Shown: positions 10,749 to 16,519 of the stretch, in pieces
Numbering within the stretch: the first letter of the stretch is position 1
Layout: each line of letters opens with the position of its first letter
Virus record (IMG/VR): IMGVR_UViG_3300000269_000002
Coordinates: 1 to 20,372 of that record
Source of the DNA: a virus
Direction: 5' to 3' (one strand)
DNA length: 20,372 nucleotides
Position numbers and translations under genes: made by a program
The notes under the pieces: model-generated
The model's database searches: none
What the model was told of the DNA's origin: nothing
The model's input: only the letters and a program-made list of their open reading frames with translations

Positions 10749-11147
10749 ATGACAGATATTCTTAAAAGTGACAACAACGTTCCACGGCGCTACGTTGATA
10801 AAAATGATAATGTTTTTGCCGAAACCGTTGTGTCAATGCCTTATTTTTGCGGTAATAATACTGCTATGCTTTCAGTTGGCATAACGTCTGCCGCAGTAAG
10901 TATTCCACCCCAATTGGGTAATAGTATTCGAGTTGTGAATGTTGGAACAAATATTGTTTGGTTCACTACTGGCGCAACAGGAACGACTCCAACCGCTGTA
11001 ATTGCTCTCGCAGGAATTCCAGGGTCTACGCCAATACTTCCGAACACTGCTGAATCATTTGCAATCCCATCCGGTCATTCAGTATTTGCTGCAATCAGTA
11101 ACGCAACTGGCAATACTATCTACGTTTCTGCTGGAGAGGGTTTGTAA
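10749..11147 (+). CDS. Probable beta-rich virion protein
   Basis: The 132-residue product starts MTDILKSDNNVPRRYVDKNDN; the rest is Val/Thr/Ile-rich and reads as a compact beta-barrel or sandwich (IRVVNVGTNIVWFTTGATGTTPTAVIA, ILPNTAESFAIPSGHSVFAAIS, NTIYVSAGEGL). The PGSTPILPN...FAIPSGHS pattern is typical of small phage head or tail decoration proteins in which a beta domain ends with an NTIYVSxGEG strand. AGGA precedes the ATG. Its stop overlaps the next ATG (TAATG). No catalytic motif is visible. Function is inferred from composition and neighbours only. Confidence 0.65.
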   Translation: MTDILKSDNNVPRRYVDKNDNVFAETVVSMPYFCGNNTAMLSVGITSAAVSIPPQLGNSIRVVNVGTNIVWFTTGATGTTPTAVIALAGIPGSTPILPNTAESFAIPSGHSVFAAISNATGNTIYVSAGEGL

Positions 11148-11959
11148 TGGTTGTGCGTGCGACTACATCAACAACAGCTATTGCACCGTTTAATATCCTT
11201 GATGTTTATACTGGCTCGGCAGCCGCGTATTCATTACGCAAATTGCGCGGCGCATATTCTGGCGCTGCTGTTCGTGTTCGCAGATCAAATGATAATGCTG
11301 AACAAGACATCGGTTTTGACGCATTGGGAAATTTTGATGAATTATCATTAGTCTCATTTGTCGGTGTTAATTCTGGATTTGTAACCACTTGGTACGACCA
11401 GAGCGGCAACGTTCGTAATGCTACACAGGCTATCGCCGCTAACCAGCCGAGGATTGTGGATGCTGGAGTAGTGGATAAGGTGAATGGGCGGAGTAGCTTG
11501 ACATATCCATCTAACACAATGCAATTTATTTATTCTGGAACAGGGCTTTCATCAACGAACGCTTGGTTTTTCAATGTGTTCTCAACGACAGACCAGATTG
11601 GTCTTTGGCATTACTCATCAGCAGGAACGTTTTTGGGGGCGTGGGGACAACCCGAAGAGAATACTACTAGCTTAGATATGGGCAATGTTGTTACCAGAGT
11701 AAACGGTGGTATTATTTCCCCACTTACGCGATTATCATTAAGAAATGCAGTTGCAACCGGAAGTCTATTAGTTGCATCTCACGGTCAAGTAATAACAAAT
11801 CCATTTTTAGCTCCTAAATATAACGGATATGATAATGCAAGTTTAGGGGGGTACTCTGTTACCGGTTCGTCTCCTGAATTTATCCTCTACACTTCCGACC
11901 AATCTTCCAACCGAGCAACAATTGAAGCAAACATTATGTCTTATTATGGAATAAACTAA
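11147..11959 (+). CDS. Putative tail appendage with arabinofuranosidase-B-like fold
   Basis: The 270-residue product contains a set of motifs I associate with the alpha-L-arabinofuranosidase B catalytic-domain-like region (ArabFuran-catal) found in many phage receptor-binding proteins: ILDVYTGSAAAYSLRKL, YSGAAVRVRRSNDNAEQDIGF, FVTTWYDQSGNVRNATQ and NQPRIVDAGVVDKVNG (residues about 17-118). The second half is beta-rich and ends IEANIMSYYGIN, as in concanavalin/LamG-like phage proteins. It probably binds, and possibly modifies, a cell-surface glycan; whether catalysis is retained cannot be told from sequence by eye. It has no long N-terminal virion anchor, so it may attach through the preceding small proteins. 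The ATG overlaps the upstream stop. Confidence 0.8.
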   Translation: MVVRATTSTTAIAPFNILDVYTGSAAAYSLRKLRGAYSGAAVRVRRSNDNAEQDIGFDALGNFDELSLVSFVGVNSGFVTTWYDQSGNVRNATQAIAANQPRIVDAGVVDKVNGRSSLTYPSNTMQFIYSGTGLSSTNAWFFNVFSTTDQIGLWHYSSAGTFLGAWGQPEENTTSLDMGNVVTRVNGGIISPLTRLSLRNAVATGSLLVASHGQVITNPFLAPKYNGYDNASLGGYSVTGSSPEFILYTSDQSSNRATIEANIMSYYGIN

Positions 11960-12175
11960 ATGAAATACAAAAAATTTGAATCAGAGAAACTCGCGCTTGA
12001 TTTTTCTGAATCCGTGGGCAAGGAAAAAGGTTGTAGCGGGGCTACAAAATATTGGTACAACATTTTGCAGGCCACCGATGGTTGGTACGCTGTAATTTAT
12101 GATGACACTGATATTCCTGATGCAACCGAAGTCGAACCGAAGTGGATTGAAAATGCCGAAAGACTCGCGCATTGA
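11960..12175 (+). CDS. Small phage protein, unknown
   Basis: The 71-residue product (MKYKKFESEKLALDFSESVG...KWIENAERLAH) starts directly after the stop of the appendage gene, with GGA a little upstream. It has an N-terminal helix, then KYWYNILQATDGWYAVIYDDT, a beta-rich aromatic segment, and an acidic C-terminus. Position directly behind a probable receptor-binding gene raises the possibility of a folding or assembly helper for it, but this is a guess from context. It overlaps the next gene by 23 bases in another frame. Confidence 0.65.
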   Translation: MKYKKFESEKLALDFSESVGKEKGCSGATKYWYNILQATDGWYAVIYDDTDIPDATEVEPKWIENAERLAH

Positions 12176-12434
12176 GCGTGCTGGGGTGTCTGGTTTTAAT
12201 AAACCAAAACGCACCCCGTCCCACCCAACAAAATCACACGTTGTAGTCGCAAAAGAAGGCGATAAAATAAAGACAATCAGATTCGGCCAGCAAGGCGTTT
12301 CTGGTTCTCCAAAAAAAGAAGGCGAATCAAAAGCGAACAAGACAAGGCGTGAATCATTTAAGGCCAGACACGCTGAAAATATAGCAAAAGGCAAAATGAG
12401 TGCTGCATACTGGAGCAATAAAGAAAAGTGGTGA
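12153..12434 (+). CDS. Small basic conserved phage protein (KPKRTPSHPTKSHVV type)
   Basis: The 93-residue product begins MPKDSRIERAGVSGFNKPKR and carries three blocks I recognise from a widespread phage family: KPKRTPSHPTKSHVVVAKEG, KTIRFGQQGVSGSPKK and FKARHAENIAKGKMSAAYWS. It is strongly basic, with conserved Ser, His and Trp positions, and no signal sequence. I recall no proven function; the composition would suit nucleic-acid or virion binding. ATG 12153 is chosen over the upstream frame because the conserved family starts here; an upstream ATG at 12099 would add residues that only shadow the previous gene. The ribosome-binding site (GGATTGAAA) is modest, and coupling to the overlapping gene may help. 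Confidence 0.78.
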   Translation: MPKDSRIERAGVSGFNKPKRTPSHPTKSHVVVAKEGDKIKTIRFGQQGVSGSPKKEGESKANKTRRESFKARHAENIAKGKMSAAYWSNKEKW

Positions 12435-12730
12435 GAATTTTATTTTTATTGTGTTTTTTTCTATCCTCATGCGCGTATAAGCCATTAGAAAATTTCCAAT
12501 GGGAAAAAACGCAAGAGCCATCCGAAAAAATAGTTTTTGTAAAGCATGATGACCCCAACAATTTTTGTAGAGAACTTGGCGTTAAGGTTGGCTTCATGCA
12601 AAAAATCATTGCATGTGCTTTAAGCACAAAAGATGTTTGCTTTATCGTTACAAATTTTGAAGAAAAAGAAATACCGATTTACATAAAAGCTCACGAAGAA
12701 AAGCATTGTCTGGGCTGGAGTCACAATTAA
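12428..12730 (+). CDS. Predicted lipoprotein with C-terminal HExxHxxGxxH metal site
   Basis: The 100-residue product starts with a classic lipoprotein signal: a basic start (MVR), hydrophobic ILFLLCFFL and lipobox LSSC, predicting lipidation at Cys15. After a short linker come Cys47, Cys63, Cys71 and Cys94, possibly two disulfides, fitting a periplasmic location. The last residues are HEEKHCLGWSHN; HEEKHCLGWSH (89-99) is a full HExxHxxGxxH zinc motif as in metzincin-type metallopeptidases, with His89, His93 and His99 as ligands and Glu90 as catalytic base. Two GTG starts are possible (12428 and 12431), the first overlapping the upstream stop. The gene is more AT-rich than its neighbours. Peptidase activity is inference; a metal-binding structural role is possible. 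Confidence 0.75.
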   Translation: MVRILFLLCFFLSSCAYKPLENFQWEKTQEPSEKIVFVKHDDPNNFCRELGVKVGFMQKIIACALSTKDVCFIVTNFEEKEIPIYIKAHEEKHCLGWSHN

Positions 12731-12741
12731 AGGTATTGCAA

Positions 12742-14142
12742 ATGCAAATTCCAATTTTGAATGGCATATATACAGATGGAGCGCCAAATGTTCGAACTTT
12801 ATATCCACAAAATCTAATTCCCGTTCCAAAAGAAAACGGGGTTAGTAATGGCTATTACCGTCAAGCTGATGGCATTACACAATTCGGAACTGGTGTGGGT
12901 GTTGATCGCGGTGGAATTGAATGGAACGGTCTTTGTTATCGAGTCATGGGGACAAAATTAGTTTCTATTGATAGCGTTGGCGCATACACCGTTATTGGCG
13001 ATGTTGGCGGCTCAGGTCAGGTTACATTTGATTATTCTTTTGATCGCTTGGCGGTGGCATCTAGTGGCGCTCTTTACTATTACAACGGAACTACATTTGT
13101 TCAGGTGACTGACGTCGATTTGGGAACCGTCGTTGATGTTGTTTGGGTTGATGGTTATTTTATGACCACGGATGGACAGTATTTAGTGGTTACCGAGTTA
13201 AATAACCCACTGTCAGTGAACCCATTGAAATACGGTTCATCTGAGGCAGACCCAGATCCAGTAGTGGCGCTCTTAAAGTTGCGCAATGAAATATATGCTC
13301 TGAACCGCCACACAATTGAGGTTTTCGATAACGTGGGTGGCGAATTGTTCCCATTTGAACGCATTGAAGGCGCGCAGATTCAACGTGGTGCAATTGGCAC
13401 GCAAGCGTGTGCGGTATACATGGATGCCGTTGCTTTTTTAGGTGGCGGTAGGCATGAAGACAATGCGATTTGGATTGGCGCGAACGGACAATGCACGAAA
13501 CTATCAACTCAAGAAATAGATTATGAGTTGGCATCATATACAGAGGCTCAACTAGCAAACGTTGTGATGGAGTCAAGAGGCTCAAAATCACATCAGTTTC
13601 TATATATACATTTGCCTGATAGAACTTGGGTATACGATGGAATGGCCTCTAACGCATTGCAAACGCCCGTCTGGTTTAAACTTGTTAGCAGCATTACAAA
13701 CGTTGGCCAGTATAGGGCGAGAAATTTTGTCTGGTGTTACAACAAATGGCTTTGTGGAGACCCAACTTCGTCAGCGCATGGTTATTTAGATGATTCAATT
13801 TCAACTCATTATGGCCAGACAATAACCTGGCAGTTTGGCACATCTATTATTTACAATGAAAGCCGAGGGGCGGTGATTCATCAGTTAGAACTTGTGTCTT
13901 TAACTGGCAGGGTTGAACTCGGAAAGAATCCAACAATCAGTACGGCATACTCAACAGACGGGGAAAACTGGAGTCAGGAAAAATTTGTGTCAGCCGGAAC
14001 AATCGGGCAATCAAACAAAAGGATTGTCTGGTTTCAACAAGGAGCACTTCGTAATTGGCGTTTGCAGCGGTTCACAGGCACAAGCGATGCCCACATATCA
14101 ATGTTAAGGTTGGAAGCCAACATAGAGGCGCTAAATGTCTAG
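12742..14142 (+). CDS. Packaged-DNA stabilisation/tail hub protein, P22 gp10-like
   Basis: In P22, gp10 follows gp4 on the neck, stabilises packaged DNA and carries the tail needle. The 466-residue product is very close to the P22 length and shows the family pattern: MQIPILNGIYTDGAPNVRTLYPQNLIPVPKENGVS at the start, repeated beta strands in a propeller-like layout (YRVMGTKLVSIDSVGAYTVIG, VTFDYSFDRLAVASSG, VDVVWVDGYFMTTDGQ), LKLRNEIYALNRHTIEVFDNVG, and EDNAIWIGANGQCTKLSTQEIDYEL. ATG 12742 follows AAAGGT. A TTG at 12706 in the same frame would add residues that shadow the lipoprotein gene. It overlaps the next gene by eight bases. Confidence 0.88.
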   Translation: MQIPILNGIYTDGAPNVRTLYPQNLIPVPKENGVSNGYYRQADGITQFGTGVGVDRGGIEWNGLCYRVMGTKLVSIDSVGAYTVIGDVGGSGQVTFDYSFDRLAVASSGALYYYNGTTFVQVTDVDLGTVVDVVWVDGYFMTTDGQYLVVTELNNPLSVNPLKYGSSEADPDPVVALLKLRNEIYALNRHTIEVFDNVGGELFPFERIEGAQIQRGAIGTQACAVYMDAVAFLGGGRHEDNAIWIGANGQCTKLSTQEIDYELASYTEAQLANVVMESRGSKSHQFLYIHLPDRTWVYDGMASNALQTPVWFKLVSSITNVGQYRARNFVWCYNKWLCGDPTSSAHGYLDDSISTHYGQTITWQFGTSIIYNESRGAVIHQLELVSLTGRVELGKNPTISTAYSTDGENWSQEKFVSAGTIGQSNKRIVWFQQGALRNWRLQRFTGTSDAHISMLRLEANIEALNV

Positions 14143-15322: not shown

Positions 15323-15657
15323 TGGTAATCACAGTTAAAAACATTATTCCCAGAAAATTCGCTGAAAATTCACAAACAGCGCAATATACTGCATCAGGCT
15401 GTAAAACAGTGATAGATAAATTCACAGTAACAAATAATTCGGCTGCAAACGTATCGTTAAGCATTAATCTAATCCCGTCTGGCGGTTCAGCATCAACAGC
15501 AAACCGAGTGTTAAATACTAGGTTAATAGCGGTAGGTGAATGTTATATTTGCCCTGAAATTGTCGGTCAGGTGATAGAGGATGGCGGTTTTATTTCTACG
15601 CTTGCAAGTGCAGCATCATCATTAACAATTAGTGCATCAGGTAGGGAAATTGTATGA
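15322..15657 (+). CDS. Small beta-rich phage protein
   Basis: The 111-residue product starts at an ATG overlapping the upstream stop (TAATG). It reads as one small beta-sandwich: KFAENSQTAQYTASGCKTVIDKFTVTNN, then VSLSINLIPSGG, TRLIAVGECYICPEIVGQVIEDGGFISTLAS, and a final strand SLTISASGREIV. The pattern (YTASG, FTVTN, V-x-L-x-I-x-LIP-x-GG, L-x-ISxSGRE-V) recurs in small phage structural proteins near tail genes, where they may decorate tails or capsids. No catalytic motif is seen. Its stop overlaps the next ATG (ATGA at 15654). Confidence 0.7.
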   Translation: MVITVKNIIPRKFAENSQTAQYTASGCKTVIDKFTVTNNSAANVSLSINLIPSGGSASTANRVLNTRLIAVGECYICPEIVGQVIEDGGFISTLASAASSLTISASGREIV

Positions 15658-16064
15658 AAGACATTAAGCCTCCAAAGTTTATTGGATATTCTTTTTCTGG
15701 AATACCTTCAGAAAAGCCATTTATTTCTGAAAAAGAAAACAATAAAAATTTAGAAATGGTCGTGGTTAATTGGCATCTTGGGCCGGAAAAAACATCTATT
15801 TATCCAAAAGATAATAAACAATTTTGGAATGAACTATCCAAGGCATGGAGTGTTACAGAGTCTGAGGCAAGAAGAAGATTTTGCGCTAATTGCGAGTATT
15901 TTGATAATACTCCTGAGATGATGGCCAAAATGGAAAAGATACCGCTAAATGATTTAGACAAAGATGGCGGTGGCCGTGGTTATTGCAATAAGTTTGATTT
16001 CATTTGCCATAACCTGAGAACCTGTCAAGCATGGGAAGAAAAAGAGTGTGAATCGGAGGATTGA
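15654..16064 (+). CDS. Cys-rich conserved phage protein, possible metal binder
   Basis: The 136-residue product is mostly polar in its first half (MKDIKPPKFIGYSFSGIPSE...). Its second half carries a Cys pattern: FCANCEYFDNTPEMMAKM (C77, C80), GGGRGYCNKFDFICHN (C111, C118) and RTCQAWEEKEC (C124, C132). CxxC followed by spaced Cys could bind zinc or an Fe-S cluster. I recognise NCEYFDNTPEMM and GGGRGYCNKFDFICHNLRTCQAW as a conserved block in podovirus hypothetical proteins that sit beside the gp14-like gene. The gene is clearly more AT-rich than the appendage genes before it. It is coupled by overlaps on both sides. The function is unknown. Confidence 0.75.
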   Translation: MKDIKPPKFIGYSFSGIPSEKPFISEKENNKNLEMVVVNWHLGPEKTSIYPKDNKQFWNELSKAWSVTESEARRRFCANCEYFDNTPEMMAKMEKIPLNDLDKDGGGRGYCNKFDFICHNLRTCQAWEEKECESED

Positions 16065-16066
16065 CT

Positions 16067-16519
16067 TTGGTTAATCTAAAAGTTTCTGATAATTCCTCAC
16101 AAACAGAAAGAAATCAGCTTTATAAAAATGATTATGTTCTTTCTGCTTTCGGGGAGTTGCATACAAAAGAACCAATTGAAAATGAATTTTTTAAATACCA
16201 CTCATGCTATGTGAATGGTAATTTTGTTGGTTGCTTTTTAGAAATAATAAGATCACCGATTGAAAGCGAAGTTCATTCTCTTTTGTTTAAAAGTGCAATT
16301 AAATATAGCAGGGAATTAGCTAAAATTTTTATCAGAAATTTATTTAACTCCAAGCCAATTTTTAGGGTTTCTACTCAAGTGATGCAAATTCATGGAAGTG
16401 TGATTAACTTTTGTTTAAAGATTGGTTTCATATTTGAAGGCATTAAACAATGTGCGGATATGAAAGATGGAGAATTACAAAACATGGTTATGTTCAGAAT
16501 TTTAAGAGGTGAAATATGA
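16067..16519 (+). CDS. GNAT-like protein in the P22 gp14 position
   Basis: A product of about 150 residues has the outline of a GNAT acetyltransferase fold: FKYHSCYVNGNFVGCFLEII (strands around a bulge), then a helix and RVSTQVMQIHGSVINFCLKI, where the last part resembles the helix after the acetyl-CoA site, and GFIFEGIKQC, the usual GF-x-x-EG turn late in GNAT domains. In P22 the gene at this place, 14, encodes a small protein needed for infectivity, annotated in databases with DUF2824 as far as I recall. There is no ATG; TTG 16067 lies seven bases after GGAGG (16055-16059), whereas TTG 16061 is too close, so 16067 is chosen. The Q/R-x-x-G-x-G/A loop of active enzymes is not clearly present, so catalysis is doubtful. 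Confidence 0.7.
   Translation: MVNLKVSDNSSQTERNQLYKNDYVLSAFGELHTKEPIENEFFKYHSCYVNGNFVGCFLEIIRSPIESEVHSLLFKSAIKYSRELAKIFIRNLFNSKPIFRVSTQVMQIHGSVINFCLKIGFIFEGIKQCADMKDGELQNMVMFRILRGEI

Follow-up and report, generated by a model that had tools for sequence, protein, structure and literature searches.

The question raised by this locus is what a lipoprotein of 100 residues, ending in a complete zinc-binding consensus, may do in the late region of a phage genome. The window (the whole stretch of DNA analysed, 20,372 bp) corresponds to an IMG/VR virus contig and contains a late module of the P22 type, in keeping with the phage origin stated in an earlier sequence-only reading. In this module, a gp10-like gene for a head-closure or phage stabilisation protein (12742..14142, + strand) matched PF11134 with an E-value of 2.3e-38, and also phrog_578. 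The lipoprotein gene lies immediately upstream (12428..12730, +), starts with a GTG codon and has a GC content of 34%, versus 44.5% across the window. Its translation contains ...LFLLCFFLSSC-AYK... near the N-terminus and has HEEKHCLGWSHN as its C-terminal end, the chain running up to the stop codon as ...KAHEEKHCLGWSHN.

The signal peptide and lipobox L12-S13-S14-C15 are encoded at 12428..12472 (+), with Cys15 at position +1 as the lipid-anchor candidate and an Ala at +2, so that the LSSC signal claimed for the protein was confirmed in the translation. Residues 89-99, HEEKHCLGWSH (12692..12724, +), agree with the HExxHxxGxxH/D zinc-binding consensus. Written as H89-E90-x-x-H93-C94-x-G96-W97-x-H99, they would supply three zinc ligands and a catalytic Glu, and every position of the C-terminal motif described previously was found. 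The protein had also been called a four-Cys protein. This is correct for the globular part (Cys47, Cys63, Cys71 and Cys94) and incorrect for the whole chain, which has six; Cys9 lies within the signal peptide and Cys15 is the candidate lipid acceptor.

When the window protein alone was searched against HMM libraries, no match was obtained. A whole-protein similarity search returned two copies almost identical to the window protein and, from a different phage (L003), one relative at 35% that has the core cysteines and HEEKHCxGWxH in common with it. A scan for the motif HExxHCxGWxH in its DNA form returned 80 stretches from viruses and 48 from bacteria before noise removal, noise being pattern matches in frames that lacked the family context, such as short frames or frames antisense to other genes. 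The distinct relatives retrieved by pattern scans number well over 100 and come from unrelated environmental phages and from some bacterial chromosomes. Their signature consists of an export signal (in most), a Cys after a helix, [AG]C, C-x-[IV] and, near the C-terminus, the motif HExxHCxGWxH or HExxHCxGWPxxH; a second subtype carries HExxHCNGWPxDHP. In the fetched loci, a combined profile collected 246 ORFs, of which 204 were non-redundant, a set that also takes in some members of a separate, Met-containing group of about 180 residues. Judged by these similarities, the window protein belongs to a large family, essentially undescribed so far, whose members are very small and mostly exported phage proteins.

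Among the chromosomal members is a gene found in Halieaceae, for example Luminiphilus and HTCC2080. A match was found in 3 of the 398 genomes of a phylum-wide sample, the centre genome counted, which indicates that the family is uncommon in bacteria. Searches by tblastn with five single members against cultured phages, and with one against plasmids, gave no match. The genes beside the relatives are heterogeneous (terminase, tail, replication and others), and a survey of neighbouring genes across the family for a functional partner or target showed no consistent partner. A lysozyme-like gene occurred within 4 kb in 6 of 141 loci, too few to claim a role in lysis. Tyrosine integrases above the cut-off were present in 5 of 28 family records, some of which may be fragments; with so few, a role restricted to prophages looks unlikely. 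Several single cases were also recorded. The neighbour of a Halieaceae chromosomal copy (L099:4799-5389) encodes a FlgO-family protein (PF17680, E-value 9.4e-36). Two viral contigs (L344 and L241) each carry two divergent copies of the small gene, one of those in L241 being a 55-residue fragment in which the first His is replaced by Tyr. In two bacterial relatives (L301 and L300) the third His is at spacing +7: a lipoprotein ending in HEVRHCFEGRFH and a protein ending in HEVGHCFYFSYHN.

Independent evidence for conservation comes from the positions left free in the scans and from whole-protein searches, the other scans having been selected on parts of the motif. When the Glu codon was left free, Glu was found in all of the family-context hits (85/85), and none of the 29 non-Glu hits had the family context. 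When the third His was left free, about 38 of the 41 family-context hits that had no His at +6 proved to carry one at +7 or +8; the three exceptions were two larger proteins (L244 and L264) and L203. Among non-redundant members, 169 of 174 have the third His at +6, +7 or +8. The spacing thus shifts yet the His persists, which is the behaviour expected of a metal ligand. Within the 246 profile hits, HE..H was absent only from one 55-residue fragment, and the relatives obtained by whole-protein similarity, both viral and from Halieaceae, kept HExxHCxGW...H. The examination of homologues that had been proposed as a check on the motif was in this way carried out, and gave a constant Glu and a third His retained at variable spacing.

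In addition, the cysteines of the globular part varied in two pairs only. Cys47 (codon 12566..12568, +) and Cys63 (12614..12616, +) were both present in 142 of 149 members and both absent from 6, with 0 and 1 members in the two mixed states. For Cys71, at the start of the last core strand (12638..12640, +), and Cys94 (12707-12709), the corresponding numbers were 129, 18, and 1 and 1. Fisher tests, which ignore phylogeny, gave p values of 5e-21 and 5e-10 for the two pairs and above 0.5 for the cross pairs, and the losses were spread over several dissimilar sequences. Furthermore, when the Cys after the second His was left free in a scan, the members without it also lacked the Cys of the last strand. 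This co-variation suggests that C47-C63 and C71-C94 are disulphides. As far as sequence can tell, the window protein is probably extracytoplasmic and held by these two predicted bonds.

An N-terminal hydrophobic stretch was found in 85 of 136 relatives, versus 19% of control ORFs, and 29 were lipobox-like. About a third of the relatives have no obvious signal peptide; four of those without one (L072, L019, L216 and L217) retain the core cysteines. A spanin match of L003 was rejected, being confined to residues 6-26 of its signal peptide. Neither the sequence nor the arrangement of Rz/Rz1 was found when an Rz1-type spanin was considered, and there was no Rz-like gene among the searched neighbours.

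The structure of the window protein was predicted with AlphaFold from an alignment of 73 sequences. The mean pLDDT was 86.9, with values of 89-98 per ten-residue block over residues 31-100 and of about 95 in the core. The predicted elements are a strand (34-39), a helix (43-49), two strands (62-66 and 70-75) and a helix (84-94) that bears HExxH, followed by a turn and a strand (97-99) containing His99. For the second subtype, the same strand-helix-strand-strand-helix order was predicted from its own alignment. This topology can be reconciled with a reduced zincin core, and the features expected of a zincin (HExxH on a helix, an invariant Glu and a candidate third protein ligand) were all recognised in the sequence and the predicted structure.

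A Foldseek search against the PDB gave no significant solved fold, GTPases and others appearing at meaningless E-values above 1. Against BFVD, it gave four uncharacterised phage proteins (probabilities of 0.96-1.00) and weak IrrE, SprT and M10 matches. Neither the window protein nor the A2 profile matched Pfam, NCBIfam or the sequences of the PDB. Reprolysin_3 was found below threshold for a few relatives (best value 0.0033), and PHROGs caught fringe members only. One of these models, phrog_27783 (88 positions, no function assigned), matches fringe members such as L046 (E-value 1.7e-8) but, in two record sets, neither the window protein nor most members.

At the locus itself, the upstream neighbour encodes a phrog_7595-like small basic protein (12153..12434, +; start codon approximate), whose stop codon is overlapped by the start of the lipoprotein gene. 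For the gp10-like gene, the most likely start codon is ATG 12742, which is preceded by AAAGG and lies 11 bases past the lipoprotein stop. No promoter-like site was found at 11900-12950 of the window, suggesting that the lipoprotein gene is probably transcribed with the late operon. In MW202867, the nearest annotated relative by gp10 (67% identity), the phrog_7595 homologue is followed directly by gp10, with three bases from stop to start and no lipoprotein gene. Given this empty site, the window gene appears to be an insert of about 300 bp, bordered by the phrog_7595-like gene on the left and gp10 on the right, unless it was lost in MW202867. The low GC content fits an insertion, yet some neighbouring genes are AT-rich too. 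From this arrangement, the gene looks like an accessory late gene, inserted in the tail/head-completion operon.

In the close relatives L001 and L002, the appendage-like genes (10784..12145, +), which end just left of the phrog_7595-lipoprotein-gp10 block, are replaced. The replacement has sharp borders and flanks that are about 88-97% identical, as in a modular swap. The block itself is retained in both, the lipoprotein having about 98% protein identity to the window copy. Elsewhere in the window, an ORF for a Cys-rich protein of 136 residues, CANCEYF...GYCNKFDFICHNLRTCQAW, is located at 15654-16064; at about the same place, after gp10, MW202867 has a gene annotated as 'high potential iron-sulfur protein'. 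The gene at 16061-16519, very AT-rich at 29% GC, lies in the position of P22 gp14 and weakly matches DUF2824 and phrog_651 (head morphogenesis). Repeated segments of the 'PVAW...PLYTHPPA' type, common to several ORFs, occur at 1-959 and 2359-2937.

We consider it fairly likely that the window protein is a minimal zincin-type metallopeptidase, an envelope lipoprotein encoded by an accessory late gene and cutting a host envelope protein. Of the roles suggested at first sight, the minimal peptidase is the best reading of the motif conservation, the pairing of the cysteines and the predicted fold. According to this proposal, the protein would be made late, together with the tail/head-completion operon, exported by Sec and then lipidated at Cys15, the Ala at +2 directing it presumably to the outer membrane of a typical Gram-negative host. 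The mature domain of about 85 residues would comprise a strand, a backing helix, a beta-hairpin and the HExxH helix, together with the disulphides C47-C63 and C71-C94. One metal, probably zinc, would be bound by His89, His93 and His99, with Glu90 as the putative general base. C71-C94 would connect the edge strand to where the active-site helix ends, and may stand in for the larger domain and Met-turn of metzincins. Once in place, the enzyme would cut a host envelope protein, and the phage might benefit either from easier lysis and virion release or from a surface changed for later phages. We lean slightly towards lysis or envelope remodelling, rather than exclusion, as the benefit.

It is possible, though on balance unlikely, that the protein is a superinfection-exclusion lipoprotein of the Llp/Cor/Rtp45 kind, which prevents the adsorption of later phages by binding or clipping a host receptor. 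To our knowledge, the superinfection-exclusion lipoproteins described act by binding, which requires no invariant HExxH, and we know of none with an invariant HExxHxxGxxH. The window protein resembles them in its LSSC lipobox, in its small, periplasmic-type mature domain with predicted disulphides and in being encoded near appendage genes; llp sits beside the receptor-binding gene pb5 (PMC9586334), and Rtp45 is a small disulphide-bonded superinfection-exclusion lipoprotein (PMC12685063). Two relatives matched the Cor family (phrog_1119) weakly, at best with an E-value of 0.0071, whereas the window protein matched no Cor model. Moreover, llp-type genes adjoin the receptor gene, yet the window gene was kept through the swap of the appendage genes in L001 and L002, which is a mild argument against a receptor-specific role. 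The exclusion role advanced by the sequence-only reading was weakened accordingly, the gene having stayed with gp10 and not with the swapped genes.

A non-catalytic role, in which the three His of a structural lipoprotein would hold a metal and no peptide would be cut, appears improbable. It would agree with the lack of a matching solved peptidase fold and with the very small size of the domain, in which a substrate cleft could hardly be accommodated. For a structural site the His would be enough, yet the Glu is no less invariant than they are. We regard as very improbable a virion-associated protein of the tail/head-completion module, active in assembly or ejection. The gene is indeed flanked by phrog_7595 and gp10 in a tightly packed late operon, and the distant relative in L072 is likewise directly upstream of a gp10-like gene. 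Against this stand the signal peptide and lipobox, the absence of the gene from the same place in MW202867 and the varied neighbours of the relatives. Finally, a chance motif in a random small ORF, for which nothing but the ORF size speaks, is of negligible probability and is refuted by family conservation, as the same protein context recurs in many distant relatives; the DNA form of the motif gave 0 matches in shuffled windows.

Returning to the minimal peptidase, we extend it to the whole family more tentatively, with slightly less than even confidence. The relatives would form an undescribed, widespread family of phage peptidases, the smallest HExxHxxGxxH zincins, in which two disulphides replace the Met-turn subdomain; they would be exported, would cleave a specific envelope protein and would be encoded by a movable accessory gene of unrelated tailed phages. 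If active, the window protein would be among the smallest known metallopeptidases, and the extended zinc motif would be shown to work without a Met-turn. The occurrence of the family in many unrelated environmental phages, together with its absence from Pfam and NCBIfam and near-absence from PHROGs, points to a common, unrecognised phage action on the bacterial envelope. The residue predictions are clear: E90, the three His and the two disulphides.

Among known systems, Llp, Cor and Rtp45 are also small disulphide-bonded phage lipoproteins, some of them encoded beside receptor-binding genes, but they act by receptor binding and are not known to carry HExxH. In minigluzincins, the third ligand is a Glu on a downstream helix. 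No such Glu on a second helix was found in the window chain, which ends at residue 100; its third-ligand candidate is His99, with no further element behind it. Unlike the window family, minigluzincins are not disulphide-stapled lipoproteins. The likeness lies in size: minigluzincins of the abylysin type (cited in PMC4559962) consist of one small HExxH peptidase domain, about 100 residues long, as in the window family.

With metzincins (clan MA(M); Peptidase_M10, Reprolysin, Astacin), the family has in common HExxHxxGxxH, the HExxH helix, the Gly turn, the third His and export. It differs by its mature domain of about 85 residues, its two predicted disulphides, the additional use of HExxHxxGxxxxH spacing by relatives and the absence of a Met-turn. 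Since the chain ends one residue past His99, the window protein is by definition not a metzincin, and the label 'metzincin-type', taken as membership, had to be abandoned; about half of the relatives have 0-3 residues after the third His. A scan in which the Cys was left free also drew marine viral proteins of about 180 residues with HExxHALGWxH and a Met some ten residues later. Several of these (L305, L303, L308, L312 and others) are matrixin-like, and L305 passes the Pfam Matrixin cut-off (25.4 versus 24 bits). These proteins are a separate, recognisable metzincin group. Comparison of their profile with that of the small family gave a probability of 81.6%, which is weak evidence of common origin because both groups were drawn by the same motif.

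A precedent for the proposed role is the Listeria phage-derived Mtz (LMRG_00713), a secreted metzincin that makes bacteria more sensitive to phage lysis, apparently by lipoprotein cleavage (PMC8235301). Mtz is Gram-positive, contains a Met-turn (AIMLD) and has a TIMP-like lipoprotein as its partner, whereas in the window the lipoprotein and the peptidase-like protein are one and the same, and no partner for it was found. Both are phage-associated and exported and carry the extended HExxHxxGxxH; as Mtz acts on the cell envelope and favours lysis, the window protein might be likened to it in function.
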